Origin: Rhodovarius crocodyli
GTDB lineage: Bacteria; Pseudomonadota; Alphaproteobacteria; Acetobacterales; Acetobacteraceae
Length of the DNA: 64,000 bases
NCBI RefSeq assembly: GCF_004005855.1
Contig: NZ_SACL01000009.1
Location: forward strand, 124,001 to 188,000
Direction of reading: 5' to 3'
In this document: piece by piece, positions 8,859-50,668 of the stretch
Layout: each line of letters opens with the position of its first letter
Numbering within the stretch: the stretch's first letter is position 1
Made by a program: the position numbers and the translations under genes
The notes under the pieces: generated by a model
The model's database searches: none
What the model was told of the DNA's origin: nothing
What the model saw: the letters and a program-made list of their open reading frames with translations, nothing else

Positions 8859-9119
8859 GGGGAGCCGGGGGTTTCACCCCCGGACCCCTGACCGGGGCTT
8901 TGCCCCTGGACCCCACCAAAGGCCGGGAGGCCTTTGGAAACCGGGAGCTGAAAGTGTGGGGAAGGGGCACCAAGCACGCTCTTGGCCCGAAGCGCCTTTT
9001 CAGCCCCTTCCCCACACTTTCAGAAGACTCGAGGGGGTCCAGGGGCCACAGGCTCCTGGCGGGGTGCAGGGGCAGCGCCCCTGCCCGGGTCCGGGGCGGA
9101 GCCCCGGCCCGCCTCACCC
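8859..9119. repeat. Convergent-gene intergenic repeat, family A copy 1 (hairpin chain)
   Basis: This 261-bp region fills the whole gap between two convergent stop codons. It is a chain of inverted repeats: a GGGGGT/ACCCCC hairpin right after the first stop, GGGGC/GCCCC, CCAAAGGCC/GGCCTTTGG, then a 21-bp perfect stem with arms at 8948-8968 and 9003-9023, then a CCAGG-type hairpin, a CAGGGGC/GCCCCTG hairpin and CCGGGG/CCCCGG near the second stop. It is the reverse orientation of copies at 36421 and 50406. No open frame here looks coding. Confidence 0.85.
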
Positions 9120-11105
9120 TCACGCCATCGCCTGCTCCGGTGCTGCCCCGGCCAGGGTCGGCAGTGGTTCCAGGCGCACGCGGGTGTCGCCATAGGCGGC
9201 CATCTGGCCGAAGTTGCTCATCACGTCCTCGGTCAGCACGTTGGCGCCGCCGCCGCGCTTGATCCAGGTGCCCACGGGCATCAGCACGATGCCGGGACCG
9301 ATGCGGTGGTCGATCTTCACCTCTACTTCCAGTGTGCCGACGGCCGAGCGCAGCAGGGCGTGCTGGCCGTCCGCGATGCCGGCCTCGGCGGCGGAGGCAG
9401 GGTCAACGCGCACGGTGGCGGAGGCGGGGTGTTCGTCCTGTGTCATCTGCGACAGCAGCCATCGCTTGCTGAAATTGGTGACGAAGGTCAGCGGGTAGTC
9501 GGGGTTGCCGGCGGGCGGGCGGGCCATGGCGGTGATGAACTCGAAGCGGCCGGAGGCGGTGGGAAACTTCCGATCCGCGAAGGGCACCATGGGCGCGATG
9601 GGGCAGCGGACGGGGCCCGCCATCACCTGGTCCAGCGTCACGCCGTGCCGGGCGAGGGGCGCCATCAGCCGTTCCAGCCATTCGCGCGGGGTGCCGGCCA
9701 TCTCGGCGCCGATGCCCAGCCGCCCGGCCAGCTGCTGGAAGATCCAGAGGTCCGAGCGTGCCTCGCCCACCGGCGGGATGGCCTGGTTCACCCCGCCCAC
9801 GATGTTGTGGCCCCAGGAGACGAGGACGTCCTCCTCCTCAAGGAAGGTGGTCGTGGGCAGGAACAGGTGGGCGTAATCGGCCGTGTCGGTCATGAAGGCA
9901 TCGACGAGCACGGTGAAGTCCAGCCGGCGGAAGGCCTCGGCCACCAGAAGGGAGTTGGGCGACTGGTTGATGGGGTTGCCGCCGGTGACGAACATCATCC
10001 GCACGGGCGGGTCCTGCGCCTCCAGCAGGCCGCGCCCCAGCATGGGCTCGGGGATGGAGCGGCGATGGGTCGCGCGGTCCGCGGCCTCGACGGATTTGTC
10101 GAACAGGCGCTGGGTGTTGAAGCCGTGGCTGGCCCCGCCGCCTGGAATGCCGATCTGGCCCGTGAGTGCCGCCAGCGCATCCACGCAGCGAAAGATCTCG
10201 GCGCTGTGGCGGTACTTGTTCAGGCCCCAGCCGAACAGGATCGCGGCCGGGCCCTGGGTGGCATAGGCGCGGGCGAGGCGGCGGATATCTTCCTCCGCGA
10301 TGCCGCAGGCCGCACTCAGGGCGGGCAGGGAATGGCCTTCCAGCATCGCCAGGAAGCCGGCGAGGCCATGGGTGTGGCTGTCCAGGAAGTCCTGGTCCTG
10401 CAGCCCTTCCTCCAGGATCACCTTGGCCATTGCCATGGCCAGTTCCGCATCGGCGGCGACGCGGGGCTGGATGTGTTCGTCGCAGACGGTGGCTGATTCG
10501 CTGCGCACGGGGTCGATCAGGACGACGCGGCCGCCGTCGGCGCGCAACTGCTTCAGCAGCGGCACCAGGTGCAGGTTGGTCGCCATGGGGTTGCGCCCCC
10601 ACAGCAGCACCAGCCGGCTGTTCAGCAGGTCCATCGGGTCATGCCCGTTGCGGGTGCCGAAATCCATCGTCTGCCCGGCACGCGAGGCGCCGCTGCACAG
10701 GGAGCCCGAGGGCGTCGTGACACCGCCCAGCAGGTTCCAGAAGCGGTGGTTCAGCTTCTTGCTGGCCCCCCAGGAGCCGGTGCGCTGGTAGTGCATGATG
10801 GAGAGCGGGCCCTCCGCCTCCAGCCGCTCCCGGATCCTGGCGGCGGCCAGGTCCAGCGCCTCCTCCCAGCCGATGCGCGTCCAGGCGCCGGCCAGCGTGC
10901 CGCCCTCGCGCTTCATCGGGTGCAGGATGCGCTCCGCGCTGTAGAGCCGGTTCGGGAAGCGATAGGTCTTGGCGCAGAGGTAGCCCCGGGTGAACTCGTG
11001 TTCCGCATGGCCCTCCAGCCGCGTGATGCGGCCGTCCACCACCTCGGCGACGATGCCGCAGCCATCGGGACAGTCGAGCGTGCAGGAGGTGTAGATCCGG
11101 GTCAT
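9120..11105 (-). CDS. Molybdopterin-dependent oxidoreductase (formate dehydrogenase / DMSO reductase superfamily)
   Basis: A 661-residue catalytic subunit of the Mo/W-bis-MGD family. It starts with a 4Fe-4S motif, C8-x3-C12-x3-C16-x27-C44, in TSCTLDCPDGCGIVAEVVDG. The likely metal-ligand region is GSLCSGASRAG (Cys137), and the C-terminus carries the cofactor-binding domain (ASATVRVDPASAAEAGIADG). There is no twin-arginine signal, so it should work in the cytoplasm. No electron-transfer or membrane subunit gene is adjacent, so its partner is encoded elsewhere or it uses a soluble carrier. Substrate unknown. ATG 11105 was chosen because the 4Fe-4S domain starts there, but no clear ribosome site precedes it. 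It is divergent from the flavin oxidoreductase, sharing a 123-bp control region. Confidence 0.88.
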   Translation of the reverse strand: MTRIYTSCTLDCPDGCGIVAEVVDGRITRLEGHAEHEFTRGYLCAKTYRFPNRLYSAERILHPMKREGGTLAGAWTRIGWEEALDLAAARIRERLEAEGPLSIMHYQRTGSWGASKKLNHRFWNLLGGVTTPSGSLCSGASRAGQTMDFGTRNGHDPMDLLNSRLVLLWGRNPMATNLHLVPLLKQLRADGGRVVLIDPVRSESATVCDEHIQPRVAADAELAMAMAKVILEEGLQDQDFLDSHTHGLAGFLAMLEGHSLPALSAACGIAEEDIRRLARAYATQGPAAILFGWGLNKYRHSAEIFRCVDALAALTGQIGIPGGGASHGFNTQRLFDKSVEAADRATHRRSIPEPMLGRGLLEAQDPPVRMMFVTGGNPINQSPNSLLVAEAFRRLDFTVLVDAFMTDTADYAHLFLPTTTFLEEEDVLVSWGHNIVGGVNQAIPPVGEARSDLWIFQQLAGRLGIGAEMAGTPREWLERLMAPLARHGVTLDQVMAGPVRCPIAPMVPFADRKFPTASGRFEFITAMARPPAGNPDYPLTFVTNFSKRWLLSQMTQDEHPASATVRVDPASAAEAGIADGQHALLRSAVGTLEVEVKIDHRIGPGIVLMPVGTWIKRGGGANVLTEDVMSNFGQMAAYGDTRVRLEPLPTLAGAAPEQAMA

Positions 11106-11175
11106 CGGGGGAGGATGCTGGCTGCAAATCTTGGATGCAAGATGGAAATATCCGAGTCCAAGAAGCGCGACTTGA

Positions 11176-11187
11176 CCGACCGGTCGG
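11176..11187. promoter_or_regulatory. Palindromic operator candidate (TetR type)
   Basis: A perfect 12-bp palindrome CCGACCGGTCGG lies 41 bp before the flavin oxidoreductase start, between two divergent genes. Its core GACCGGTC is identical to the core of the two operators beside the TetR gene at 14110, so the same repressor may act here. Protein identity at this site is inference. Confidence 0.55.
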
Positions 11188-11228
11188 GTCATTCCACGCT
11201 CGGTCATATAACGTGAGAGCGTTTCACC

Positions 11229-12413
11229 ATGCCGCATGCCGGGCTGCGTTTCGGGATTTTCCTCGCCCCCTTCCACCGCGTGGGCGACAACCCGACGCTG
11301 GCGATCCACCGCGACATCGAGCTGATCGAGCATCTCGACCGGCTTGGCTATGACGAGGCCTGGGTCGGTGAGCATCACTCGGCCGGGTGGGAGATCATCG
11401 CCTCGCCCGAACTCATCATCGCGGCCGCGATCGAGCGCACCCGGCACATCCGCATCGGCACGGGTGTGACGAGCCTGCCCTATCATCACCCCCTGCTGGT
11501 GGCGCAGCGTTTCGTGCAGCTGGACCACATGTCGCGCGGGCGCACCATGCTGGGCTGCGGCCCCGGCGCGCTGGCTTCCGATGCCTATATGATGGGCATC
11601 CCGGCCGAGGCGCAGCGCCGGCGGATGGATGAATCGCTCTCGGCCATCATGGCGTTGCTGGCCTGCGACGCGCCGGTGACGATGGAGACCGACTGGTTCA
11701 CCCTGCGCGACGCGCGGCTGCACCTGGCCCCCTACACCCATCCGCATTTCCCGATCGCGGTCGCCACTTCCACCACGCCTTCCGGCGTCATGGCCGCGGC
11801 CAAGCAGGGTGTGGGGATGCTGTCGCTCGGCGCGGGCCTGCCGGGCGGGCCGCAGAAGCTGGCCGAGCAATGGCGCCTGGCCGAGGAGGTCTCGGCGCAG
11901 AACGGCAAGACCATGAACCGCTCCGACTGGCGGCTGGTGGTCAACATGCACTGCGCCGACACCGATGAGCGCGCGATCGAGGACGTGAAGCGCGGCGAGC
12001 GGATGGAGACCGAGGACTATTTCGGCGAGGTCCTGGCCCGCCCGCCCACGCGCAGCGAGGACCCGCTGGGCGACGGCCTGCGCGCCGGCACCACGCTGGT
12101 GGGCTCGCCCGAGACGGTGGCCCACGGCATCGAGCGCCTGCTGGGCTTCACCGAGGGGGGCGCGGGGGCCGTGCTGTTCCGCGCCCATGAATGGGCCGAC
12201 CGCGAGGCCACCTGGCGCAGCTTCGAGCTGTTCGCGCGCTGGGTGATGCCGCGCTTCCAGGGCAGCCTGGTGATGCCGCAGCGCAGCCGCGACTGGTGCG
12301 TGGAAAACCGCGCCGGCATCTTCGCGCCCAACATGGCGGCGCTGCACAAGGCCTTCACCGATGCCGGCCAGGCGGTGCCCGAGAGCCCGCGCCTCAAGAT
12401 CAGGGAAAAATGA
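11229..12413 (+). CDS. Luciferase-like (LLM) flavin-dependent monooxygenase, limonene-monooxygenase-like
   Basis: A 394-residue member of the bacterial luciferase-like family, which uses reduced FMN and O2 to oxidise small molecules. The N-terminus (FGIFLAPFHRVGDNPTLA, then DEAWVGEHHSAGWEI and RIGTGVTSLPYHHP) is very like limonene 1,2-monooxygenase and alkanal monooxygenase alpha-type proteins. The natural substrate cannot be named from sequence. ATG 11229 places the conserved first strand at residue 7. A TetR-type palindrome sits 41 bp upstream, suggesting induction by a small molecule. It is divergent from the molybdopterin oxidoreductase; an 81-bp gap separates it from the downstream ABC exporter. 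Confidence 0.9.
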   Translation: MPHAGLRFGIFLAPFHRVGDNPTLAIHRDIELIEHLDRLGYDEAWVGEHHSAGWEIIASPELIIAAAIERTRHIRIGTGVTSLPYHHPLLVAQRFVQLDHMSRGRTMLGCGPGALASDAYMMGIPAEAQRRRMDESLSAIMALLACDAPVTMETDWFTLRDARLHLAPYTHPHFPIAVATSTTPSGVMAAAKQGVGMLSLGAGLPGGPQKLAEQWRLAEEVSAQNGKTMNRSDWRLVVNMHCADTDERAIEDVKRGERMETEDYFGEVLARPPTRSEDPLGDGLRAGTTLVGSPETVAHGIERLLGFTEGGAGAVLFRAHEWADREATWRSFELFARWVMPRFQGSLVMPQRSRDWCVENRAGIFAPNMAALHKAFTDAGQAVPESPRLKIREK

Positions 12414-12494
12414 GAGCGGTTCTCAGCATCATCACAATTCGTTAAGTGACGTGCTGTGGCGTAACGCACACCGGACCGCTAAAGCCAGCCCAGC

Positions 12495-13328
12495 ATGTTC
12501 ACTTCCCATCAGGCTCCCGCCGTGCGGGACGCCGCCGACCCGCGCCATCTGGCGCGGGCGCTCGATGATCTCGCACTCGGTTTCTCCCGCTGGCGGCTGC
12601 CGCTGGGGCTGGCGCGGCTCGACCTGCGCAACCGGTACCGGGGCAGCGTGCTGGGCCCGTTCTGGATCACGCTTTCCACCTCCATCATGCTGGCGGCGCT
12701 GGGCTTTCTCTATGCCCGGCTGTTCCGCATCGATGTGGCGGACTACCTGCCGTTCCTGGCGACCAGCCTGGTGTTGTGGAACCTGATCTCGGGGCTGGTG
12801 AATGACGGCACGCAATGCCTGACCGACCGTGAGGATGTGATCAGGCAGATGCCGCAGCCCTATTCGGTGCATGTGCTGCGCTGCGTGCTGCGCCACGCGC
12901 TGGCGGCGGCCCATGTGCTGCCGCTGGTGCCGATCGTGTTCCTGCTCTGCGGGCGCTGGCCGGGCTGGGGCTTGCTCGGCACCATCCCCGGCCTGTTCCT
13001 GTTTCTGGTCAACGGTGTGTTCGTCTGCACGCTGCTGGGCATGGTCGCCGCCCGCTTCCGGGACATGGGGCCGATCATGCAGTCGGGCATGCAACTGCTG
13101 TTCTTCGTCACCCCCATCATCTGGAAGCCCGAATTGCTGGGCGACCGGGTGGGCTTCCTGGCGCTGAACCCCGTTTATGCCATGATCGAACTGGTCCGCG
13201 CGCCCATGCTGGGGCAGATGCCCGGCCTGCTGATCATGGCCGCGGCGCTGTTCTACACGGCCGTTCTCGGCGGGCTCGCCTTCACCATCTTCGTCCGCTG
13301 GCGCGGGCGCATCGCGTTCTGGGTCTAG
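12495..13328 (+). CDS. ABC-2 type polysaccharide export permease (Wzm/KpsM-like)
   Basis: A 277-residue inner-membrane protein with about six hydrophobic segments (for example SIMLAALGFLYARLFRI, YLPFLATSLVLWNLISGL and IPGLFLFLVNGVFVCTLLGM). RYRGSVLGPFWITLSTSIM and the later MQLLFFVTPIIWKPELL are signatures of O-antigen and capsule exporters. With the ATPase 4 nt downstream it forms an exporter for a lipid-linked or capsule-type glycan. No glycosyltransferases are adjacent, so the glycan itself cannot be named. Confidence 0.93.
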   Translation: MFTSHQAPAVRDAADPRHLARALDDLALGFSRWRLPLGLARLDLRNRYRGSVLGPFWITLSTSIMLAALGFLYARLFRIDVADYLPFLATSLVLWNLISGLVNDGTQCLTDREDVIRQMPQPYSVHVLRCVLRHALAAAHVLPLVPIVFLLCGRWPGWGLLGTIPGLFLFLVNGVFVCTLLGMVAARFRDMGPIMQSGMQLLFFVTPIIWKPELLGDRVGFLALNPVYAMIELVRAPMLGQMPGLLIMAAALFYTAVLGGLAFTIFVRWRGRIAFWV

Positions 13329-13332
13329 TCGC

Positions 13333-14715: not shown

Positions 14716-14797
14716 GGCTGGCTCCTTCAGGTTGGCGAACTCTCAACGCCGTGACGATAAAACGGTTCGCGGCTGCAAAAAACCCACTTGATGTTAC

Positions 14798-14807
14798 TGA
14801 CCGGTCA
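14798..14807. promoter_or_regulatory. TetR operator, copy 1 (TGACCGGTCA)
   Basis: A perfect 10-bp palindrome between the TetR gene and the divergent efflux operon. A second identical site starts 31 bp downstream, about three helical turns, consistent with paired dimer binding on one face of the DNA. Confidence 0.75.
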
Positions 14808-14828
14808 CTCTACATGGCGTTTTGTGAC

Positions 14829-14838
14829 TGACCGGTCA
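14829..14838. promoter_or_regulatory. TetR operator, copy 2 (TGACCGGTCA)
   Basis: The second identical palindrome, ending 21 bp before the membrane-fusion gene start, where a bound repressor would block transcription or clearance of the efflux promoter. Confidence 0.75.
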
Positions 14839-14859
14839 CATCCTGTCCCGGAGATAATC

Positions 14860-16023: not shown

Positions 16024-16104
16024 TCCTCCTTTCTTTCTGAAACCTGCCGCCGGACGGGCCATTCGCCCCGTCCGAACGGCGTCCCCAACCCGGAGACCGG
16101 GCCC

Positions 16105-19100
16105 ATGAAGCTCGCACGCTTCTTCATCGACAGGCCCGTCTTCGCGGCTGTCATCTCCATCGCGATCACGCTGGTGGGCGCCATCGCCGCCTTCCGCCTG
16201 CCGATCGCGGAATACCCCGACATCGCGCCGCCCACGGTGCAGATCACCGCCAACTACCCCGGCGCCTCCGCCGACACGGTGGCCGAGACTGTCGCCGGCC
16301 CCATCGAGCAGGAGGTGAACGGCGTCGACGGCATGCTGTACCTGTCCTCCCAGGCGACGGGCGACGGGCGCGTGACCATCAGCGTGGTGTTCCGCCAGGG
16401 CATCAACGTGGATCAGGCACAGGTGCTGGTGCAGAACCGCGTGGCGGTGGCCGAGCCCCGCCTGCCGGAGGAAGTCCGGCGCCTGGGCATCACGGTCCGC
16501 AAGGCCAGCCCCGACCTGCTGATGGTGGTTCACATGTCCTCGCCGGACGGCTCGCGTTCGGGCGAATACGTGTCCAACTACGCCACGCTGAACATCAAGG
16601 ACCGCCTCGCCCGCCTGGAAGGGCTGGGCGACGTGCAGATCTTCGGTGGCCGAGACTACGCCATGCGCATCTGGCTCGACCCCGACCGCGTCGCGGCCCG
16701 CGGCCTGACGGCGGGTGAGGTGGTGCAGGCGTTGCAGCGCGCCAACGTCCAGGTCGCCGCCGGCGCCGTGGGCCAGGCCCCCCGCCTTGCCGAGGCCGGC
16801 GCCTTCGAGCTGACGGTGCGCGCGCTCGGCCGCCTGACCACGCCCGAGCAGTTCGACGAGCAGATCATCGCCACCGGCACCGACGGCGCGCCGATCCGTC
16901 TGCGCGACGTGGCCCGCACCGAGATCGGCGCCGCCGACTATACGGTGAACGCGCTGCTGAACGGCGATACCGCGACGGCCCTCGCGCTGTTCCAGCGCCC
17001 TGGCTCCAACGCGCTGGACACGGCCGCCGGCGTGCGCGCGGTGATGGAGGATGCGTCCCGGCAATTCCCGCCCGGCATCGCCTACAGCATTGTCTACGAC
17101 CCGACGCGCTTCATCGCGCAGTCCATGGATGCGGTGGCGCATACCTTCATCGAGGCCGTGGTCCTCGTTGTGCTGGTGGTGATCCTGTTCCTGCAGAGCT
17201 GGCGCGCGGCCATCATCCCGCTGCTGGCCATCCCGGTCTCCATCATCGGCACTTTCGCGCTGCTGCTGGCGATGGGCTTCACGCTGAACACGCTGACCAT
17301 GTTCGGCCTGATCCTGGCCATCGGCATCGTGGTGGATGACGCCATCGTGGTGGTCGAGAACGTGGAACGCCACATGGCCGCCGGCATGTCCGCCAAGGAG
17401 GCCGCGCGGCGCACCATGGATGAGGTGGGCTTCGCGCTGATCGCCATCGCCCTGGTGCTGGTCGCGGTGTTCGTGCCGACGGCGATGATCTCGGGCCTGG
17501 CGGGCGCCTTCTACCGGCAGTTCGCCGTGACCATCGCGGTGGCGACGCTGCTCTCGGCGCTGGTGTCTCTGACGCTGTCGCCGGCCCTGGCCGCGCTGCT
17601 GCTGAAGCCTCACGCCCATGCACATGGCAAGAAGGGCTTCATCCTGTTCCGCCCGATCGGTGCCTTCTTCCGCGGCTTCAACTGGATCTTCGACAGGCTC
17701 TCCATCGGCTATGGCGCGGTCACGCGCCGGCTGCTGCGGGTCGGCGCGCTGATGCTGGTGCTCTATGCCGGGCTGCTGGCGGGCACGGGCTGGATGGTGA
17801 ACTCCACCCCCACCGGCCTGATCCCGCCGCTGGACCGCGGCTATCTGATCGTGGCCTTCCAGCTGCCGCCGGGTGCCAGCCTGTCGCGCACCGATGAGGT
17901 GATCCGTCGTGCCTCCGAGACCATCCGGGCCACGCCGGGGGTGCAGGACGCCATCGCCTTCGTGGGCTTCGATGGCGCCACCTTCACCAATGCGCCCAAC
18001 AGCGGCGTGATCTTCGCTGGCCTGAAGCCCTTCGAGGAGCGCATCGCCACCGGCCGCAGCATGTTCGCCATCCTGGGCGACCTGCAGGCGCGCCTGTCGG
18101 CCGACCGCGAGGCCAATGTGCTCGTCATCCCGCCGCCGCCGGTTCCCGGCATCGGCACGGGCGGCGGCTTCAAGCTGATGCTCCAGGACCGCGCGGGCCG
18201 TGGCCCGCAGGAGCTGGAGCGCGTGCTGCACCAGGTGCTGGGCCGGGCCAACGGCACGCCGGGCATCGCCTTCGCCTTCAGCCTGTTCAATACCTCCACC
18301 CCGCAGATCCGCGCCGACATCGACCGCAACCGCGCCGAGATGCTGGGCGTGCCGGTCAGCCGCGTGCATGAGGCGCTGAGCATCTACCTGGGCTCCGCCT
18401 TCGTGAATGACTTCAACCTGCTGGGTCGCACCTGGCGCGTGACGGCGCAGGCCGACATGAGCCACCGCGCGACGCTGGACGATATCGCCCGCCTGCGCAC
18501 GCGCTCCGACGAGGGCGGCATGGTGCCGATCGGCACGCTGGCCACCTTCCGTGAGAGTGCCGGCCCCTATCGCGTGCCGCGCTACAACCTGTTCCCCGCC
18601 GCCGAGGTGCAGGGCGCGGCTGCCCCGGGTGTCTCCACCGGCCAGGCCATCGCCGCCATGCAGGCCGTGCTGGGCGAGGTGCTGACCGATGGCTGGGGCT
18701 ATGAGTGGACGGAACTCGCGCTGCAGGAGACGACGCAGGGCAACACCGCGCCCATCGCCTTCGGCCTGGCGGTCGTGTTCGTCTTCCTGCTGCTGGCGGC
18801 CATGTATGAAAGCTGGCTGCTGCCACTGGCCGTGGTGCTGATCGCGCCGATGTCGGTATTGGCCGCGCTGTGGGGCGTGCGGCATGCCGGGCTCGACAAC
18901 AACATCCTGGTCCAGGTGGGCCTGGTGGTGCTGGTGGGCCTGGCAGCGAAGAACGCGATCCTGATCGTGGAATTCGCCCGCGCCGCCGAGGATGAAGGGA
19001 TGAGCCGGCGCGACGCCGCCATCGCCGCCGCCAAGACCCGGCTGCGCCCCATCCTGATGACGAGCCTGGCCTTCATCCTGGGCGTGCTGCCACTGACGGT

Positions 19101-19278
19101 GGCCACCGGCGCCGGCGCCGAGATGCGCCAGAGCCTGGGCACCGCGGTGTTCTGGGGCATGCTGGGGGTGACGGTGTTCGGCCTGCTGTTCACGCCGGTG
19201 TTCTACGTCGCGGCACGCTGGTTGGCGGGGCTGGGGCGCAGGAAGGCGCAGGTAGTCAGGGCGGTGGAGGCGGATTGA
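16105..19278 (+). CDS. RND multidrug efflux permease (HAE-1 family, MexF-like)
   Basis: A 1057-residue inner-membrane proton antiporter of normal family length. It starts with ARFFIDRPVFAAVISIAI followed by LPIAEYPDIAPPTVQI, the hydrophobe/amphiphile efflux-1 signature. The proton-relay aspartates are Asp411-Asp412 in GIVVDDAIVVVEN, and the TM10 lysine is in LVGLAAKNAILIVEFARAAED. Periplasmic porter domains occupy the two large loops. It expels drugs, solvents or toxic metabolites with the adaptor upstream, under control of the divergent TetR. ATG 16105 follows GGAGA. The 3' end runs into a 256-bp hairpin repeat. Confidence 0.95.
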   Translation: MKLARFFIDRPVFAAVISIAITLVGAIAAFRLPIAEYPDIAPPTVQITANYPGASADTVAETVAGPIEQEVNGVDGMLYLSSQATGDGRVTISVVFRQGINVDQAQVLVQNRVAVAEPRLPEEVRRLGITVRKASPDLLMVVHMSSPDGSRSGEYVSNYATLNIKDRLARLEGLGDVQIFGGRDYAMRIWLDPDRVAARGLTAGEVVQALQRANVQVAAGAVGQAPRLAEAGAFELTVRALGRLTTPEQFDEQIIATGTDGAPIRLRDVARTEIGAADYTVNALLNGDTATALALFQRPGSNALDTAAGVRAVMEDASRQFPPGIAYSIVYDPTRFIAQSMDAVAHTFIEAVVLVVLVVILFLQSWRAAIIPLLAIPVSIIGTFALLLAMGFTLNTLTMFGLILAIGIVVDDAIVVVENVERHMAAGMSAKEAARRTMDEVGFALIAIALVLVAVFVPTAMISGLAGAFYRQFAVTIAVATLLSALVSLTLSPALAALLLKPHAHAHGKKGFILFRPIGAFFRGFNWIFDRLSIGYGAVTRRLLRVGALMLVLYAGLLAGTGWMVNSTPTGLIPPLDRGYLIVAFQLPPGASLSRTDEVIRRASETIRATPGVQDAIAFVGFDGATFTNAPNSGVIFAGLKPFEERIATGRSMFAILGDLQARLSADREANVLVIPPPPVPGIGTGGGFKLMLQDRAGRGPQELERVLHQVLGRANGTPGIAFAFSLFNTSTPQIRADIDRNRAEMLGVPVSRVHEALSIYLGSAFVNDFNLLGRTWRVTAQADMSHRATLDDIARLRTRSDEGGMVPIGTLATFRESAGPYRVPRYNLFPAAEVQGAAAPGVSTGQAIAAMQAVLGEVLTDGWGYEWTELALQETTQGNTAPIAFGLAVVFVFLLLAAMYESWLLPLAVVLIAPMSVLAALWGVRHAGLDNNILVQVGLVVLVGLAAKNAILIVEFARAAEDEGMSRRDAAIAAAKTRLRPILMTSLAFILGVLPLTVATGAGAEMRQSLGTAVFWGMLGVTVFGLLFTPVFYVAARWLAGLGRRKAQVVRAVEAD

Positions 19279-19534
19279 ACGGGGGCGTTGCCCCCGGAGA
19301 CCCCCAGCAAGAGGCTCTGCCCCTTGCATCCCCGCCAGGACCGTAGCGGCCCTGGACCCCGGGGAGTTGGCACTGACCTTGACGATGCTTATCTAATTGA
19401 TTTTAAAAATAAAAATGGCGCCCCGCTTATCCAGCGTGGGCGCCAAACTTCTATCAGGTCCAGGAGATATTATCTCCTGGCGGGGAGCCGAGGGGCAGGG
19501 CCCCTCGGTGGGGTCTGGCGCAACGCCCCGGCCT
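19279..19534. repeat. Convergent-gene intergenic repeat, family B copy 1
   Basis: A 256-bp region filling the gap between convergent stop codons. It opens with a CGGGGGC/GCCCCCG hairpin and includes a CCAGGACCG..CGGCCCTGG hairpin, an AT-rich block near 19390-19420, a GGCGCC-flanked hairpin and a near-perfect palindrome at 19460-19480 with arms CCAGGAGATA and TATCTCCTGG. The segment from the GGCGCC through AACTTCTATCAGGTCCAGG recurs inverted in the copy at 43723. No coding frame is credible. Confidence 0.8.
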
Positions 19535-19981: not shown

Positions 19982-20077
19982 GCCGCAACCTAGCTGAGCG
20001 TTTCGCGCAACGGAATGTCCCTTGCGCCAATTCGGTGCGAAGTTTTCGGGATACTTCGCAATAAATGCGACGTCTGC

Positions 20078-20350: not shown

Positions 20351-20513
20351 GTGCGCTCCTGATGCCTGCACCGTCGCGGTTAGCGAAGTGTTAACGCCGT
20401 GGCCGATTCCTACGCTGTCTCAAAAACTGATACAAGTATAAAAAATGGTTAACGGCGCAGGGCGCCTCACGCCAGGGGGTGCCTTTCCGGCCGCCTCACC
20501 TTACAAGACGGCC

Positions 20514-32323: not shown

Positions 32324-32456
32324 TTCTTCTTTTTCTGAAGAAAAAGAAGCAAAAAGACTTTCTCCGTTAGTGATGGTCTGATCGATGTATGGCGTCCTCC
32401 AAGGCGCCATACAGAACAGACAAAAATTTTTTGGTTCTTTTTTATAAAAAAGAACA
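32324..32456. repeat. AT-rich intergenic element with two palindromes
   Basis: An AT-rich block in otherwise very GC-rich DNA. It holds a 10-bp stem CTTCTTTTTC/GAAAAAGAAG (32326-32349), an ATGGCG/CGCCAT pair, and a perfect palindrome with arms GTTCTTTTTT and AAAAAAGAAC separated by AT (32434-32455). It lies between two plus-strand genes and could end the dehydrogenase transcript or act as a control element for the ABC gene. The remaining bases to 32528 show nothing recognisable. Confidence 0.5.
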
Positions 32457-32528
32457 ATGACTTTTTCGATGCCTTCGGCTGCCTCCATGGGCTGGCGCTC
32501 ACCGCCCCGCTGGGCGACAAGCGCATCC

Positions 32529-36420: not shown

Positions 36421-36683
36421 GGCGCGCTTCGGGGGCCTTGCCCCCGAACCCCCGCGCAGGGGCGCCGCCCCTGCACCCCGCCAGGAGCCTGTGGCCCCTG
36501 GACCCCCACGAGTCTTCTGAAAGTTTGAGGAAGGGGCGCCGAGCGCGCCTCGGGCCAGGGGACCGTCACAGCCCCTTCCTCAAACTTTCAGCCCCCGGTT
36601 TCCAAAGGCCTTTCGGCCTTTGGCGGGGTCCAAGGGCAGAGCCCTTGGTCGGGGTCCGGGGGTGAAACCCCCGGAGTGCAACC
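36421..36683. repeat. Convergent-gene intergenic repeat, family A copy 2
   Basis: A 263-bp hairpin chain filling the stop-to-stop gap between serS and the M20 hydrolase gene. In order: CGGGGGC/GCCCCCG, CAGGGGC/GCCCCTG, a CCAGG..CCTGG hairpin, a 21-bp perfect stem (arms 36517-36537 and 36571-36591), CCAAAGGCC/GGCCTTTGG, CCAAGGGC/GCCCTTGG and CCGGGGGT/ACCCCCGG just before the second stop. Same orientation as the copy at 50406, inverse of the copy at 8859. Confidence 0.87.
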
Positions 36684-37967
36684 TTACCCGTTCGCCAGCT
36701 CCGCCAATACCTGCGCCAGCACGCGCGTGCCGGCGGCGAGTTGCGGTGCCGTCGAGTATTCGGCCGGGTTGTGGGAGACGCCGTTGCGGCAGGGCACGAA
36801 GATCATGCCGGTCGGGCAGAGCGGCACCATGAACTGGGCGTCGTGGAAGGCGCCGGAGGGCATGCGCAGCCAGCCCAGCCCCTGCGCTTCGGCCGCGCGT
36901 TGCACGGCATCCGTTACCAGCGGCGCGAACTGCGCGGGTGTCGCGTGGAAGCGTTCGGAAAGCGTGGCGGTGCAGGTGGTCAGTGCCGCCTGGATCACGC
37001 CCTCGATGGCATTGCCGCGCGCCTGCAGCACCGCGTTGTCCGGATGGCGGAAGTCGATGGAGAAGCGCACGAGGTCGGCGACCGAGTTGGAGGCGTTGGG
37101 GAACACCTCCATGCGGGCCACGGTGAAGCGCAGCACGTCGGTCGGGTCGCGCATCAGCGTGTTCAGCGCGGTGATGGCGCGGATGGCGTCCTGCATGGCG
37201 TCGCGGCGCACCGACAGCGGCGTGGTGCCCGCGTGGTCCGAGCGGCCGCGGATCTCGACCGAGAACCAGCGGCTGCCCTGAATGCCGGTGACGACGCCGA
37301 CGTCCAGGCCCTTCTGTTCCAGCACGGGGCCCTGCTCGATGTGCGCTTCGACATAGGCATGGGGCGTCTGGCCTTCGACCACGCCGAGCGGCCGGCGGGT
37401 GATGTCGGCCTCGGCGGCCTGGTGTTCGGCCAGCGCGTCGGCCCAGCTGATGCCGGCATTGTCGCGGATGCCGTCCCAGGTATTGGGGGGCGCGTAGCCG
37501 GCATAGGCCATGCTGCCCATGCAGCCGGGGGCGAAGCGGCCGCCTTCCTCATTGGTCCAGGCCACGACCTCGATGGGGCGCCTGGTGGCCACGCCGGCCT
37601 CACGCAGGGCCTGCACCGCCTCGAAGGCCGCGATCACGCCGTAGATGCCGTCGAAGCGGCCGCCCTTGGGCTGGCTGTCCATGTGGCTGCCGGAGACGAC
37701 GGGGGCGGCGCCGGCCTCGGTGCCTTCATGGCGGAAGAACAAATTGCCCAGCTGGTCGACGCTGACGGCCAGGCCGATCTGTTCCGCCCAGCCGATGATC
37801 AGGCGGCGGGCCTGGCGGTCCTCCGGGCTCAGGCAGGGGCGGTTCACGCCGCGGTCCTCCGGGCTGTCGCCGGGGATGGCGCCGATGGCTGCCATTTCCA
37901 TCAGCCTGTCCCATTGCCGGGCCTCGCTCACCGCCGCGACCAGATTGGGGGCAACCGCCTGCACCAT
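36684..37967 (-). CDS. M20 family Zn-dependent amidohydrolase (allantoate amidohydrolase / N-carbamoyl-amino acid hydrolase type)
   Basis: A 427-residue binuclear metal hydrolase. Metal ligands lie in VVSGSHMDSQPKGGRFDG (His, Asp), in WTNEEGGRFAPGC (Glu pair) and AHIEQGPVLE (His), with the C-terminal His in NGVSHNPAEYS. The dimerisation domain holds RGRSDHAGTTPLSVRRDA. The family includes allantoate amidohydrolase (AllC) and N-carbamoyl-L-amino acid hydrolase. Because hiuH and puuD are divergent 112 bp away, an allantoate or other ureide substrate is the better guess. Confidence 0.88.
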   Translation of the reverse strand: MVQAVAPNLVAAVSEARQWDRLMEMAAIGAIPGDSPEDRGVNRPCLSPEDRQARRLIIGWAEQIGLAVSVDQLGNLFFRHEGTEAGAAPVVSGSHMDSQPKGGRFDGIYGVIAAFEAVQALREAGVATRRPIEVVAWTNEEGGRFAPGCMGSMAYAGYAPPNTWDGIRDNAGISWADALAEHQAAEADITRRPLGVVEGQTPHAYVEAHIEQGPVLEQKGLDVGVVTGIQGSRWFSVEIRGRSDHAGTTPLSVRRDAMQDAIRAITALNTLMRDPTDVLRFTVARMEVFPNASNSVADLVRFSIDFRHPDNAVLQARGNAIEGVIQAALTTCTATLSERFHATPAQFAPLVTDAVQRAAEAQGLGWLRMPSGAFHDAQFMVPLCPTGMIFVPCRNGVSHNPAEYSTAPQLAAGTRVLAQVLAELANG

Positions 37968-40765: not shown

Positions 40766-40808
40766 CAGCGGCACTTAACAGCCGTGCAGGGCGTGATAGA
40801 GAACGCGC

Positions 40809-43722: not shown

Positions 43723-43979
43723 GCAGCGGCTTTGCCTTTCCCCCGCCAAGGGGCGCTGCCCCTTGGAACCCCGCCAGGAGATAATATCTCCTGGACCTGA
43801 TAGAAGTTTGGCGCCCGGCTTTCGCAGGCCGGGCGCCATTTTCATTATAATATTCAATGAGAAAAACTTGGCAGGGTCTGGTGCCAACTGCTCTAGCTCC
43901 AGGACCGAGCACGGTCCTGGCGGGGTTCCAAGGGGCAGCGCCCCTTGGTGGTGGTGGGCGGGGGCAAAGCCCCCGGCGA
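43723..43979. repeat. Convergent-gene intergenic repeat, family B copy 2
   Basis: A 257-bp hairpin chain between convergent stops. It holds CCAAGGGGC/GCCCCTTGG, a near-perfect palindrome at 43774-43794 (arms CCAGGAGATA and TATCTCCTGG), TGGCGCCCGG/CCGGGCGCCA, an AT-rich block near 43845, a CCAGGACCG/CGGTCCTGG hairpin, a second CCAAGGGGC/GCCCCTTGG and CGGGGGC/GCCCCCG before the last stop. It is inverted relative to the copy at 19279. Confidence 0.83.
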
Positions 43980-44405: not shown

Positions 44406-44419
44406 GGGGTGCTCCTGTC

Positions 44420-46000: not shown

Positions 46001-46015
46001 CCATCCCGCGAGTAA

Positions 46016-47113
46016 TCAGGCCTTCTTCTTCTCTGCCGCGTGGCGCAGCAGCGACAGGCCGCGATACACGCCATGCACCATCTTGCTGTAGGGCATCAGC
46101 AGGAAGAAGCTGAACACCAGCCCCAGATGCAGCGCCAGCATCATGCCCATGGCCCCGGTGTGGCGCAGCGCCAGCAGCAGCAGCCCGGTGGCCGCGATCA
46201 GGAACAGCAGGCCGAGGATGGCGAACTCACCGCCCAGCAGGCGGCGCGCCACCGGCACGGGGTCGGTGATGATCTTGATGCGCGTCAGGCCGATGGCGCC
46301 CACGCACATGAACAGCCCGCCCCAGAAGCCCAGCTGCACCGGCAGGCTGAGGAAGGCGTGCGGCGACTTCCAGCCGAAGAAGTAGTGATAGATCGTGCCC
46401 ACGCAGGTGGCCGCGAAGCACAGCATGAAGCCGCCGAACAGCGCCTGGTGGAACAGCCGCTTCTGCATCGAGAAGCTGTCATCCACATCGTTGCAGCCAT
46501 GCCCGCCGCCGCCCAGGTTGCGCAGCGTCGCGATGTCATGCGCCGCCACCGCCGCCGCATAGGGGCCGGGCTGCGAAGCCGAGGCGCCGGTCGCGCGCCA
46601 GTAGCGGATGCCGCCCATCACCATGGCCAGGATGGCCCAGCCGAAGGTGCCGAGGCCCAGCAGGATCATCAGCCAGTGCGGCACCACGCGGAAGAAGGCG
46701 CCCGGCCCGCGCTGGGCGCTGGTCAGCACCGAGGGATCGACCAGCAGCACCGACAGCAGCATGGCCAGCGTCGCGCCGAACACGGCGACCGCCGTGACCA
46801 GCGTGCCGTTCTTCTCGAACAACCGCCCCGCGCCCTCGGGCCAGGCATGGGCCGCGTAGCTTTCCTGCCGCACCTCCGCGAAGACCTGCGGGATGTTCAC
46901 CCCGAAGGCATGCGGCGGCGCGTACTGGCAGGCGTGGTAGCAGCCCTTGCAGCCGTGGCAGAGGTTCGCCAGGTGGGTGATGTCGCCCAGCGAGAAATCG
47001 CGGCGCATCGTCATGGCGGGGAACACCGCGCAGTAGCTTTCGCAGTACCGGCAGGCGTTGCAGATTTCCATCATCCGACGGGCGTCGGCGGTGGCTTCGG
47101 TCTCGGCGTTCAT
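46016..47113 (-). CDS. tcuB: Tricarballylate utilisation 4Fe-4S membrane protein TcuB (CitB-like)
   Basis: A 365-residue inner-membrane electron carrier. Two 4Fe-4S clusters are encoded at the N-terminus (CNACRYCESYCAVFP and CHGCKGCYHACQYAPP), followed by six membrane helices with several His residues likely to bind haem. It reoxidises the flavin of TcuA and passes electrons to the quinone pool. It lies 13 nt after tcuA on the same strand. The substrate may be tricarballylate or a related tricarboxylate; tcuC-type transport is not adjacent. Confidence 0.92.
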   Translation of the reverse strand: MNAETEATADARRMMEICNACRYCESYCAVFPAMTMRRDFSLGDITHLANLCHGCKGCYHACQYAPPHAFGVNIPQVFAEVRQESYAAHAWPEGAGRLFEKNGTLVTAVAVFGATLAMLLSVLLVDPSVLTSAQRGPGAFFRVVPHWLMILLGLGTFGWAILAMVMGGIRYWRATGASASQPGPYAAAVAAHDIATLRNLGGGGHGCNDVDDSFSMQKRLFHQALFGGFMLCFAATCVGTIYHYFFGWKSPHAFLSLPVQLGFWGGLFMCVGAIGLTRIKIITDPVPVARRLLGGEFAILGLLFLIAATGLLLLALRHTGAMGMMLALHLGLVFSFFLLMPYSKMVHGVYRGLSLLRHAAEKKKA

Positions 47114-47126
47114 CGGAAGCCCCCCT

Positions 47127-48524
47127 TCAGTTCAGCACGGTCTTGGCGGCTTCTTCGCCGGCGATGCGGCCGAAGCTGGTGCCGATCGCCATGCCGAAGC
47201 CGGCCAGATACCCCTGGCCCAGGATGTTGCCCGACATGATCTCCCCGCAGGCGAGCAGGTTGCTGGCCAGCGTTCCGTCGGCCATCACCACCCGCGCGCG
47301 GTCGTTCACCTTCACCGACAGGAAGGTGAAGGTGATGCCCGGACGCAGCGGGTGCGCGTGGAAGGGCGGCGTGTCGATGCGCCGTGCCCAATGGGATTTC
47401 GGCGGCGTCAGCCCCTCGGTCGAGCAATCGTCCAGCTTCTGGCCATTGAAGGTGCCGGGCCGGACGGCGGCGTTGTAGTCGGCGACCACCGCCTCCAACT
47501 TCGCGACATCCAGGCCGAGCTTCTGCGCCAGCTCCCCGATCGTGTCCGCGCGGATCGGCGGGAAGACGCTGGGCAGGTAGTCGTTGATCGCCTTCACGTC
47601 GGAAATCGCGAAGGCGCGCTGGTTGGGCTGCTGCGCGATCAGCCGCCCCCAGATGGCATAGCGCTTGGGCCAGGTGTCCTCGCCCTCATCGTAAAAGCGC
47701 TCGACATTCTCGTTCACCACGACGGAGAACGGCACGCAGTCCAGGCGCATGGCCAGCCCGCCATCTTCCATCGGCGCGCGGGCATCATTGGCCACGGCGT
47801 GGAACTGGGTGGGGTCGCCGACCTCCTGGATGCCCTGTGCCAGCAGGTCCTTCAGGATCTTGCCCTGGGCATAGGGGGTGCCGCGGATCTGGAAGTTGTC
47901 GGCCGCATCGCCCCAGTATTTGCGCAGCCAGTCGCGGTTGGCCTGGAAGCCGCCGGACGCCGCGATCACCGCCTTGAAGCGGATGCGCTGCGGGAAGCCC
48001 TTGTGGTTCACGATGGCTTCGGTGGCGTGCCCGCCCTCCATGTGGATGTGCTGGACCTCGCAGTCATACAGCAGTTCCACGCCGAGCGATTCGGCCGTGC
48101 GATAGACCGCATTCACCAGCGCCTTGCCCCCGCCCAGGAAGAAGGCGTTGGTGCGGCTGAGCGACAGCGTGCCCGACAGCGAGGGCTGGAACACCACGCC
48201 GCAGCTCTGCAGGAATTCCGGCGCGTATTGGCTGGCGCGGATGCAGGTGCGGGCCAGATGCTCATCCGTGCGGCCCTTGGTGACGCGCAGCAGGTCGTCC
48301 CAATACTCGTCTTCCAGATAGCTCTCGGTCAGCACGTCGGTCGGTGCCGGGTGCAGGGAGCGCACGTTGCGGGTGTGGCGCGAATTGCCGCCGCGCATGT
48401 GCTTGGGCGCGTGTTCCGCGACGATGACGGAGGCACCGGCGCGGCGCGCGGTGATCGCGGCACACAGCGCCGCGTTGCCGCCACCCACCACCAGAACGTC
48501 CCACAGTTTGTCGAAATCGGGCAT
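47127..48524 (-). CDS. tcuA: FAD-dependent tricarballylate dehydrogenase TcuA
   Basis: A 465-residue flavoprotein of the fumarate reductase/succinate dehydrogenase flavoprotein type. FAD-binding VLVVGGGNAALCAAITARRAG is at the N-terminus, with RGGNSRHTRNVRS and the C-terminal LACGEIMSGNILGQGYLAGFGMAIG completing the cofactor site. It oxidises tricarballylate to cis-aconitate in the known TcuABC pathway. ATG 48524 was chosen because the Rossmann motif begins at residue 11. A tandem 10-bp repeat sits immediately upstream and a GntR gene is divergent. Confidence 0.93.
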   Translation of the reverse strand: MPDFDKLWDVLVVGGGNAALCAAITARRAGASVIVAEHAPKHMRGGNSRHTRNVRSLHPAPTDVLTESYLEDEYWDDLLRVTKGRTDEHLARTCIRASQYAPEFLQSCGVVFQPSLSGTLSLSRTNAFFLGGGKALVNAVYRTAESLGVELLYDCEVQHIHMEGGHATEAIVNHKGFPQRIRFKAVIAASGGFQANRDWLRKYWGDAADNFQIRGTPYAQGKILKDLLAQGIQEVGDPTQFHAVANDARAPMEDGGLAMRLDCVPFSVVVNENVERFYDEGEDTWPKRYAIWGRLIAQQPNQRAFAISDVKAINDYLPSVFPPIRADTIGELAQKLGLDVAKLEAVVADYNAAVRPGTFNGQKLDDCSTEGLTPPKSHWARRIDTPPFHAHPLRPGITFTFLSVKVNDRARVVMADGTLASNLLACGEIMSGNILGQGYLAGFGMAIGTSFGRIAGEEAAKTVLN

Positions 48525-48530
48525 GGGCTT

Positions 48531-48560
48531 GTTGTATCCAGTTGTATCCAGCCCTGTCCA
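48531..48560. promoter_or_regulatory. Tandem direct repeats between tcuA and the GntR gene
   Basis: GTTGTATCCA occurs twice exactly head to tail (48531-48540, 48541-48550), followed by a weaker copy GCCCTGTCCA. It lies in the 53-bp divergent gap, so it is the likely operator of the neighbouring GntR regulator, though direct rather than inverted symmetry is unusual for GntR. Confidence 0.55.
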
Positions 48561-48577
48561 GATGGCAAAAGCCCAGC

Positions 48578-49240
48578 ATGAGCTCAGATCTCGCCGAACA
48601 GACCTACACGCTGCTGCGCGCGGCACTGGCCAGCGGCAGCCTCAGCCCCGGCCTGCGCGTGACGGAGATGGAGCTGGCGGCGCGCTTCGGCGTCTCCCGC
48701 ACGCCGATCCGCCGCGCCATCGCCCGGCTCGAGGCCGAGGGGCTGCTGAGCCGGGAAGGCGGCGCGCTGGCCGTCACGCGGCCGGACCACGCGGGCGTCG
48801 TGGAACTCTATGTGATGCGCGAGATCCTGGAGGGTGCGGCCGCCCGCCTCGCGGCCCAGCACGCCAGCGCCACGGAACTGGCGGCGATGGAGGAGGTGGT
48901 GGCCGGCGAGCCCGCCGTCTTCAACGATGCCCCCCGCCTGGCCGCCATCAACCAGCGCCTGCACGGGCTGATGTATCTGTCCGCGCACAACCGCTACCTG
49001 CTGAAATCGCTGGAGCAGCTGGGCGCCACCATGGCGCTGCTGCCCTCTCTGCTGACCCGGGGCGGCCGTGCCGAACAGGCGCATGCGGAGCATCAGGCGC
49101 TGGTCCAGGCCTTGGCCCGCCGCGACCAGCCCGCCGCCGAGGAAGCCGCCCGTGCCCATGCCCGCGCCGCGCTGCGCCATCGGCTGGCCTGGCTGGCGGA
49201 GCAGGGCGGGCTGCCGATAGCAGCGCCCGGTAATGCCTGA
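48578..49240 (+). CDS. GntR family regulator divergent from tcuAB
   Basis: A 220-residue regulator with an N-terminal winged helix (LASGSLSPGLRVTEMELAARF, then GVSRTPIRRAIARLEAEGLL) and a helical FCD domain (LYVMREILEGAAARLAAQHA; HAEHQALVQALARRDQP). It is divergent from tcuAB across 53 bp and probably controls it; in enterobacteria this role is filled by the LysR-type TcuR, so regulator type has changed. ATG 48578 begins at the domain. Confidence 0.9.
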   Translation: MSSDLAEQTYTLLRAALASGSLSPGLRVTEMELAARFGVSRTPIRRAIARLEAEGLLSREGGALAVTRPDHAGVVELYVMREILEGAAARLAAQHASATELAAMEEVVAGEPAVFNDAPRLAAINQRLHGLMYLSAHNRYLLKSLEQLGATMALLPSLLTRGGRAEQAHAEHQALVQALARRDQPAAEEAARAHARAALRHRLAWLAEQGGLPIAAPGNA

Positions 49241-49355
49241 ACGGCAGGGCCGGCCATGCCTCCGGAGGCATAGCGGCTAGGCCGGTTTTCCGTCATGCCC
49301 GCGCCGCGCGGCCGTCATACTCTTCGCTGCCGCAGCAAAGCCCGGGGACCTGCCG

Positions 49356-50405
49356 ATGGAATTCGCCCTTTTCAACCTGATGTCGCTGAACAATGCGGAG
49401 GAAACCCCGGCCCATGTGTTCAGCCTGACCAGCGCCGCCGTGCCGCTGGCCGAGAAGCTGGGCTTCGACGGTGCCTGGTTCGCCGAGCATCACTTCACCT
49501 CGGCCTCTGTCTGCGCCTCGCCGCTGATGATGGTGGCCCACGCGGCCGCCCTCACGAAGCGCATCAAGCTCGGCCCCGCCGTGCTGGTCACGCCGCTGCA
49601 CAACCCGATCCGCATGGTCCAGGAAGTGGGCATGGCGATCGAGCTGACCCAGGGCCGCTTCTGGCTGGGCATCGGCACCGGCCACCAGCCGCATGAATTC
49701 ACCAGCTATGGCGTGCCGCTGGCCCAGCGCACCGAGATCATGCAGGAACAGTGGGACATCCTGGAGCAGGGCCTGACCACCGGCCGCATCAAGCTGGACG
49801 GCAAGCATTTCCAGGTGCCCGACAGCCCCATCTGCATCCACGGCCACCCGATGCCGCCGATCTTCATCCCCGGCACTGAACCCGCGCTGCTGGCCCGTGC
49901 CGCCCGCACCGGCAACGCCACCGCCTTCGTCAGCCAGGGCTTCCGCCGCGCGGAGGACACGCTGGCGCTGAAGGCGAAGTCCGAGAAGCCCTGGCGCGAC
50001 GCGGGCTTCACCGGCCGCGACCTGCCGCTCGGCCTGCAGCGCTATGTCTTCGTGACCGACGATGCCGCCGAGCAGCGCCGCGCCGCCGAGGGGCTGCTGC
50101 GCCTGGCCCGCACCACGCTCTCCCTGCGCGACCCCGTGCCGCCGCGCGACGGCGTGCTGATGCGCTCCATCCCCTATGAAGGGGAGCCCAGCATCGACTG
50201 GCTGCTGGAGAACGCGCCGATCGGCTCCGCCGAGAAGGTGGCCCGCATCCTGGCCAATGACATGGCCGTGCTGCGCCCCAGCCATTTCAGCATCTACTCG
50301 GGCTTCACCGGCCTGGAACAGGGCAAGGTGCTGGCCGCCATCGAACGCTTCGGCCGCGACGTGCTGCCGCGGCTGCGCCAGGAAGGCGCGGCGCTGGCGG
50401 CTTGA
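49356..50405 (+). CDS. Luciferase-like (LLM) flavin-dependent oxidoreductase
   Basis: A 349-residue flavoprotein of the bacterial luciferase-like family. FDGAWFAEHHFTSASVCASPL and KLGPAVLVTPLHNPIRMVQEV are characteristic, as is GRFWLGIGTGHQPHEF. Substrate unknown. It differs clearly from the limonene-type protein at 11229 (different length and N-terminus), so it is not a duplicate. It is a single gene; the upstream 115-bp gap from the GntR gene shows no hairpin. The stop abuts a 263-bp hairpin repeat. Confidence 0.9.
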   Translation: MEFALFNLMSLNNAEETPAHVFSLTSAAVPLAEKLGFDGAWFAEHHFTSASVCASPLMMVAHAAALTKRIKLGPAVLVTPLHNPIRMVQEVGMAIELTQGRFWLGIGTGHQPHEFTSYGVPLAQRTEIMQEQWDILEQGLTTGRIKLDGKHFQVPDSPICIHGHPMPPIFIPGTEPALLARAARTGNATAFVSQGFRRAEDTLALKAKSEKPWRDAGFTGRDLPLGLQRYVFVTDDAAEQRRAAEGLLRLARTTLSLRDPVPPRDGVLMRSIPYEGEPSIDWLLENAPIGSAEKVARILANDMAVLRPSHFSIYSGFTGLEQGKVLAAIERFGRDVLPRLRQEGAALAA

Positions 50406-50668
50406 GGGCGCGCTCCGGGGGCTTCGCCCCCGGGCCCCCAGCCAGGGGCGCTGCCCCCGGCACCCCCGCCAGGAGCCTGTGGCCCCTGGACCCCCTTGAG
50501 TATTCTGAAAGTTTGGGAAGGGGCAGCGAACGCGCTCTGGCCCCACGCGCCCACGCGGCCCCTTCCCGAACTTTCAGCTCCCGGTTTCCAAAGGCCTCTC
50601 GGCCTTTGGCGGGTTCCAAGGGCAGAGCCCTTGGTCGGGGTCTGGGGGGCAAAGCCCCCAGCGCGCCC
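50406..50668. repeat. Convergent-gene intergenic repeat, family A copy 3
   Basis: A 263-bp hairpin chain filling the gap between convergent genes. It begins CCGGGGGC/GCCCCCGG, then CAGGGGC-type and CCAGG..CCTGG hairpins, a 20-bp stem (arms 50505-50524 and 50558-50577, with one T-G pair), CCAAAGGCC/GGCCTTTGG, CCAAGGGC/GCCCTTGG, and CTGGGGGGC/GCCCCCAG at the far stop. Same orientation as the copy at 36421. Confidence 0.87.

Follow-up and report, generated by a model that had tools for sequence, protein, structure and literature searches.

Hairpin-Chain Repeats Filling Stop-to-Stop Gaps in Rhodovarius crocodyli as Candidate Mobile 3′-End Modules

Introduction

An ordinary terminator is one short hairpin, unlike a dispersed repeat of 250 bp, and miniature inverted-repeat transposable elements (MITEs) are non-autonomous, have inverted-repeat ends, and differ in presence or absence between relatives. 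Repetitive extragenic palindromes (REPs) are described as lying between convergent and unidirectional open reading frames (ORFs), 3′ of coding regions, with the ends of GTAG REPs often supplying the stop codon, and the same account reports CGTC repeats as missing from the Acetobacteraceae (PMC3733652). In the bacteria covered by another study, stem-loops show a preference for convergent gaps over divergent ones; that study presents ERIC, NEMIS, Ype, and Efa as repeats of intergenic regions whose RNA forms hairpins and possibly influences the stability of mRNAs (PMC1590033). Here we analyze a 64,000-nucleotide stretch of the genome of Rhodovarius crocodyli, a member of the Acetobacteraceae (contig NZ_SACL01000009.1, positions 124,001 to 188,000; hereafter, the window), in which five gaps between convergent genes are filled, from stop codon to stop codon, by chains of hairpins belonging to two families, A and B. 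With a probability of roughly 0.55, we read these gaps as copies of a non-autonomous REP- or MITE-like mobile repeat that resides at gene 3′ ends and serves as a two-way 3′-end module.

Like REPs, BIMEs, and REPINs, the A and B elements are dispersed palindromes in composite arrays, found in convergent and unidirectional (tandem) gaps and rarely in divergent ones (49, 19, and 2 of 70 copies, respectively, the last two being the arms of one locus). Unlike in REPs and BIMEs, the unit is far longer, with a median of 242 bp, up to seven hairpins, and an exchangeable core, and in contrast to GTAG and CGTC REPs, it has no tag at the hairpin foot. Over 87 A/B elements, CGTC occurs 43 times vs. 82 in shuffles, and GTAG, which occurs 76 times vs. 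54, sits by eye, in the aligned copies, in the loop of one hairpin allele and not at the foot. The reading as a RAYT-driven REP was rejected, no Y1_Tnp being found in the genome, and since the tag and RAYT features both fail, we speak of REP-like or MITE-like elements rather than of REPs. Like MITEs, the elements are present at a site in one relative and absent in another. The arms of A and B elements are inverted copies, their outermost sequence varies among copies, and neither a parent transposase (Y1_Tnp alone was searched) nor a target-site duplication was found. The elements resemble ERIC, NEMIS, Ype, and Efa in being intergenic and hairpin-forming, and we know of no stop-to-stop fit, nor of paired arms with a swappable core, in those four. 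The cores of B are like bidirectional intrinsic terminators in that they carry a stem and a U-tract, on both strands in 5 of 37 copies. No Rfam family matches the window at gathering score, and permissive Rfam scans of two elements returned 5 and 7 matches, far below gathering (best E value 0.0014, 27.3 vs. 47 bits). We found no description of these elements, or of a third family, C, in the literature searched.

Results and Discussion

Five Gaps in the Window Hold a Modular Hairpin Chain

The five gaps were picked out by a sequence-only reading of the window, which gave their lengths as 261, 256, 263, 257, and 263 bp. These lengths and the coordinates (Table 1) are exact, and genes called with a codon-usage model place convergent stops on both sides of each gap (8858/9120, 19278/19535, 36420/36684, 43722/43980, and 50405/50669). 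The division into two families present in either orientation also stands, with A at 8859, 36421, and 50406 and B at 19279 and 43723; the copies at 8859 and 19279 are inverted relative to the other members of their families there. A GGGGG/CCCCC hairpin had been ascribed to each end, which needs qualification: at 43723 the left end reads as a degenerate GGCTTTGCC, and only four G are present at some ends. That no such element lies in gaps of another type is correct for A and B in the window, but a copy of family C occupies a tandem gap there. When each strand is folded, all five gaps are far more stable than 60 dinucleotide shuffles (z from −7.0 to −13.5); for comparison, the two strands of the rpmB gap give z values of −3.5 and −3.3.

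From one end to the other, a full A or B element consists of three hairpins (1, 2, and 3), a core, and three further hairpins (3′, 2′, and 1′), the two arms being roughly inverted copies of each other. Each arm consists of a hairpin 1 built around GGGGC-GCCCC, a GGACCCC-type linker, a hairpin 2 built around GGGC-GCCC, a second linker, and a hairpin 3 that comes in several alleles. The A core is a 21-bp helix with one purine-rich strand and a loop of ~34 variable bases, and the AT-rich B core contains the helix GGCGCC...GGCGCC, after which one strand has a tract resembling ATTTTTATTATAAT. Hairpin 3 alleles are common to A and B (for example, the AAAGGCC hairpin in the B copies C11:211609 and C11:274160), so the modules seem to recombine. 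Among the 70 copies, length ranges from 77 bp, a fragment, to 254 bp. Family C comprises 12 copies of 80 to 161 bp; their outer hairpins are AT-rich, and the core is GC-rich in many of them.

Copies Lie Flush with Stop Codons, Chiefly Between Convergent Genes

The R. crocodyli genome that we searched measures 5.27 Mb in 48 contigs and is 99.5% complete, the window being 64 kb of contig C48. Similarity queries, with the best 40 places scored for each, gave 76 matches on both strands for A and 92 matches for B. Placement relative to genes was determined in an 864-kb sample composed of C11 1–400 kb, C33 1–400 kb, and the window, which was chosen for its elements and is counted inside the sample; gene calls yielded 118 convergent, 559 tandem, and 118 divergent gaps. 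Profiles of A and B located 23 clusters in it, 15 convergent, 6 tandem (including a 77-bp fragment distant from a stop), and a pair formed by the two arms of a single divergent-gap locus. Occupancy is thus 15 of the 118 convergent gaps, 6 of the 559 tandem gaps, and 1 of the 118 divergent gaps, a bias (Fisher p = 4e-8 for convergent vs. tandem and 3e-4 for convergent vs. divergent) that differs from the scatter regardless of gene orientation against which the sequence-only reading had set its proposal. Scaled from this sample, the element-chosen window included, the whole genome would hold roughly 130–140 A/B loci. Roomy convergent gaps are frequently occupied: those of at least 80 bp contain A or B in 15 of 35 cases (22 of 35 with C counted), and those of at least 200 bp in 13 of 17, the remaining four measuring 390–1045 bp and possibly hiding missed genes. 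Family C forms 7 convergent and 5 tandem clusters in the sample; its profile was built from 7 convergent gaps, which recur among its matches, and it is therefore unsuitable for judging orientation, the 5 tandem clusters alone being independent.

Edges were measured on the 70 non-redundant A/B copies, that is, the profile clusters of the sample plus the top 30 similarity matches per family. Of the 49 convergent copies, 42 have a stop no farther than 15 nt from each edge (A, 22 of 26; B, 20 of 23), as do 49 of 56 when the C seeds are included. An even spread of insertions across the 56 element-free convergent gaps of 0–300 bp would put 11.7% of them this close on both sides, or 5.3% with longer gaps retained. 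Outside the window, tandem gaps hold elements too, and 14 of these 19 copies have an edge within 15 nt of a stop (B, 12 of 13; A, 2 of 6). The earlier proposal of a defined repeated element of fixed size and position is supported.

A selfish REP/MITE-like element without host function might arrive at much the same distribution if it inserted widely and survived just at stop–stop junctions or after stops, since insertion elsewhere breaks a gene, a promoter, or an operon. We hold this possible, though clearly less probable than a 3′-end module. The near absence of copies from divergent gaps, the gene density and short convergent gaps of this genome, the locus at which arms surround an ORF, and the differences from a sister species (see below) are all in keeping with it, as is the fact that the A query is closer to its best copy in its own genome (90%) than to the best copy in that species (82%). 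But neutral insertion would scatter copies over the larger convergent gaps and would be flush in some 12% of cases, not in 42 of 49, and the U-tailed site kept in 32 of 37 B copies is needless for a purely selfish element.

The start of the elements was also compared with the stop codon itself. Where an element end lies no more than 20 nt from a stop, a G directly follows the stop codon in 86% of cases for A (49 ends), 58% for B (55 ends), and 39% for C (18 ends); the corresponding frequencies are 32% for other gene ends (n = 746) and 39% for convergent ends without an element (n = 192). From this excess of G, the sequence of A, and less strongly that of B, tends to start right at the stop. 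The outer flank is loosely conserved, a GGCGC[GA]C string being found within 16 nt after the stop at just 9 of 49 A ends. A start at the base after the stop is what would be seen if the machinery of a site-specific mobile element recognized the stop–stop junction, or its collision or supercoiling zone, so that targeting and not selection set the position. Two sister-species sites with just 3 bp between stops, and one that holds B here and A there, point the same way. We nevertheless judge this unlikely, because no enzyme (Y1_Tnp searched alone) and no target-site duplication was found, tandem gaps hold 19 of the 70 copies, with just two of six tandem A copies within 15 nt of a stop, and the sister comparison fits insertion or loss.

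Stems Are Conserved, and B Cores Carry Terminator-Like Sites

For family A, we aligned 30 of the 33 copies, the others being fragments, and derived an RNAalifold structure from the same alignment. The 43 pairs of four helices are paired in 98.3% of cells, and changes on both sides affect 16 pairs and 82 cells, compared with 7.9 and 20.9 in shuffles and with 3–6 and 3–12 in slid structures. A second count covered 270 GGGC-GCCC hairpins in the 87 A/B elements of R. crocodyli and the sister species. Position 3 of their flanking stem is paired in 244 of 270 cases where 140 are expected (C-G 163, A-T 53, and G-C 22); positions 1, 2, 4, and 5 are likewise above expectation, and position 6 is below it (85 vs. 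106).

Terminators were sought with a fold-based scan for hairpins of −12 kcal/mol or better adjoining a T-rich tract on at least one strand, which replaced a strict scan for perfect stems (B, 16 of 37; A, 0 of 33; C, 2 of 12) because the latter missed imperfect ones. Terminator-like sites are thereby reported in 32 of 37 B copies, 4 of 33 A copies, and 2 of 12 C copies, with 28 of 120 in a control of stretches after random stops that is unmatched in composition. By reading, the B site lies in the core in 30 of the 32 copies and in an arm in 2, and the sister species gives a similar picture (B, 10 of 12; A, 1 of 5). For the B copy at 43723, a simple scan gives a terminator on each strand (2 vs. 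0.4 in shuffles), while the fold-based scan reports the one on the + strand alone. The two-way terminator suggested by the sequence-only reading is matched by the anatomy of B, five copies of which have a U-tailed hairpin on both strands, but not by that of A.

Orthologous Sites Differ in a Sister Species

Comparison with a sister species of the same genus (G005; 84–91% identity over the longest aligned blocks, 1.16 Mb compared) reveals a rapid turnover that had gone unnoticed in the sequence-only reading, in that orthologous gaps are empty, inverted, or occupied by the other family. When 84 clusters were set against G005, 41 were unplaced, 34 were one-sided or inconsistent, and 9 sites were comparable; the set discussed here omits L013, a paralogue at 67% identity, and includes L327:18965, which came from the junction comparison. 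Five of the nine are without an element in G005, and four have one (two inverted, one B vs. A, and one the same). Just 3 bp separate the stops in G005 at 19279 and at L327:18965, where a partial B lies in a 134-bp gap here. The 50406 site has a single hairpin instead of a full A element, the C site at 32324 retains 15 or 63 bp depending on which of two alignments is used, and L021 retains 72 bp with a weaker flank match. As for the occupied sites, 43723 and L037 hold B in both species, inverted, L011 holds A in the same direction, and C11:263916 holds B in R. crocodyli and A in G005. By eye, the left stop codons at 19279 and 50406 match in both species and the right stops are at the corresponding place, and the left gene at L327:18965 is one codon longer in R. 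crocodyli. The differing sites may be gains in R. crocodyli.

The single GC hairpin at the 50406 site could suggest that ordinary terminators evolved in place by hairpin duplication, with no movement. This is very improbable, as copies at unrelated loci are ~75–90% identical among the full-length matches listed, which largely refutes it; moreover, the mean column identity of the alignments is 76% for A and 71% for B, and two sister sites have only 3 bp between their stops.

Gene order was compared at junctions with at least one flank placed in G005, 46 convergent junctions with an element and 102 without one being unplaced; one-sided placements were counted as broken, so all the break rates that follow are overstated. 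Among convergent junctions with an element, 14 of 20 show a different order. The order also differs at the 8859 and 36421 sites of the window, and three neighboring elements on one 20-kb stretch are all breakpoints, as they would be if the elements were recombination hot spots that reshape gene order. Of all the alternatives, this one seems to us the least credible, since element-free convergent junctions differ equally often (13 of 18) and a G005 element is present at just 3 of 15 assessable broken edges. With equal rates with and without it, any association is with the convergent arrangement of the junctions rather than with the element. Tandem junctions with an element differ in 2 of 4 cases, and element-free tandem and divergent junctions in 33 of 107 and 7 of 26, respectively. 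Gene order differs most often at convergent junctions overall, with or without an element, at 27 of 38 placed. At G005:C4:1-243, next to the orthologue of 36684-37967, the end of an apparent transposase gene, possibly IS1595-like, stands beside a remnant arm.

A Proposed Mobile Module at Transcript 3′ Ends

A mobile 3′-end module could work as follows. Copies would settle flush with stop codons, above all in the few bp between two convergent stops. A transcript coming from either side would then meet stable hairpins, and in B also a U-tailed terminator, with the result that RNA polymerase would halt, or the 3′ end would be protected, before the opposite gene is read as antisense. Judging from the sequence, the element probably acts at transcript 3′ ends, most securely in the case of B; such termination or protection in the cell may benefit the host, and an enzyme would presumably mobilize the copies.

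Several points weigh against this picture. Most convergent gaps of the sample (103 of 118) are without A or B, and purifying selection in a gene-dense genome could produce the flush fit. The terminator role of A is weak, as A is without a U-tract, and family C seldom has a terminator-like site either. The helices counted in A represent 4 of 7 hairpin positions, hairpins 1, 3′, and 1′ being left out as poorly aligned, and one of five covariation measures, further pair types, is 28 vs. 24.4 and was reached by 9 of 500 shuffles. Compensatory changes can also arise without selection on RNA, through template switching or repair of palindromes or through gene conversion between copies. The differences from G005 seem to fit insertion here or loss there alike, and no target-site duplication is visible by eye at the two 3-bp empty sites, few as these are. 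Finally, no mobilizing transposase was found, Y1_Tnp (PF01797, RAYT), with 0 matches in this genome and 5 of 14 control genomes positive, being the one family searched.

A more far-reaching proposal, which we consider doubtful, is a new class of site-specific mobile DNA with a stop–stop target slot, in which exchangeable cores (a GC hairpin, a terminator, or occasionally an ORF) between paired hairpin arms have spread through the Acetobacteraceae as portable two-way transcription boundaries. It overlaps the mobile 3′-end module, which leaves targeting open. Many genes face each other almost without space in this genome, where the median convergent gap is 9.5 bp, which poses the problem of what separates their transcripts. 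A repeat that fits these slots closely, in interchangeable designs, and that is present or absent at the same junction in relatives amounts to a natural experiment, and it prompts one to ask how such precise placement comes about in a dispersed repeat for which no transposase is known.

Element Matches Extend to Other Genera of the Family

With an A element as the query and the best 12 places scored per genome, matches were obtained in 7 of the 8 further genomes of the genus, in 14 of 27 additional genera of the family, and in none of 24 genomes from elsewhere in the class; most of those listed outside the genus are arm pieces of 30–90 bp. The 28 loci taken from this search, two of them from G005, comprise 7 convergent, 13 tandem, and 0 divergent gaps along with 8 contig ends, so outside the species a convergent preference is not evident, and what holds up is an absence from divergent gaps. 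By eye, several of these loci have a full chain with a different core (e.g., L183, L193, and L205). A 1057-aa protein encoded in the window shares ~80% identity with proteins of Neoroseomonas, Falsiroseomonas, Roseococcus, and Belnapia, which suggests a Roseomonas-like host within the family; at 80 loci of named relatives with a homologue of it, the A/B profiles match one, weakly (33 bits), in Neoroseomonas eburnea, which reads as an arm pair with a B-like core. Phage records gave no match to A, the sole query used, and two IMG/VR contigs hold A-like and B-like copies (L313 ~600-870, in a convergent gap, and L314 ~5245-5520, directly after a stop), so viral or proviral DNA may carry the elements.

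In a plasmid search, B had no match, and A matched four Streptomyces plasmids over 52–77 bp alone. Two Streptomyces plasmids (L209:1990-2165 and L210:1935-2110), alike downstream too by eye, display non-coding GC hairpin chains with GGACCCC-type linkers. The building style of A and B recurs here in plasmids of a distant phylum.

Features of the Window and Neighboring Genes

Table 1. Positions of the hairpin-chain elements and terminator-like sites in the window
Feature	Coordinates	Strand	Remarks
Family A element, reference orientation, stop to stop	8859..9119	+	Core helix arms 8948-8968 / 9003-9023
Family B element, stop to stop	19279..19534	+	Orthologous G005 site empty, 3 bp between stops
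Intrinsic-terminator-like hairpin and T-rich tract, B core	19407..19446	-	Fold-based scan; coordinates read from sequence
Family C AT-rich hairpin chain, tandem gap	32324..32457	.	Overlooked in the sequence-only reading; no element seen at G005 site
Family A element, inverted, stop to stop	36421..36683	-	Core helix arms 36517-36537 / 36571-36591
Family B element, inverted, stop to stop	43723..43979	-	G005 B element here, opposite orientation
Intrinsic-terminator-like site, B core	43809..43848	+	13-bp stem, then TTTTCATTAT
Second, weaker terminator-like site, B core of 43723	43858..43887	-	6-bp stem 43887-43868, tail GTTTTTCTCA; simple scan only
Family A element, inverted, stop to stop	50406..50668	-	G005: 28-bp single-hairpin spacer

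The genes that flank the five gaps are unrelated to each other, as judged by a Pfam scan of 9 of the 10 neighbors (16105-19278 was left out). They include a class V aminotransferase, a molybdopterin oxidoreductase, a seryl-tRNA synthetase, and an M20 peptidase, as well as a hydroxyisobutyrate-dehydrogenase-like protein, a luciferase-like monooxygenase, and a rubrerythrin-like protein; two of the nine scanned have no Pfam match.

Elsewhere in the genome, a divergent gap (C33:246679-247402, equivalent to L093:6679-7402) contains a 154-aa ORF, without a Pfam match, between an A-like arm and a B-like arm. The pattern EL..RG....P...G.DLLV..VQVKT in this ORF may hint at a PD-(D/E)XK nuclease.

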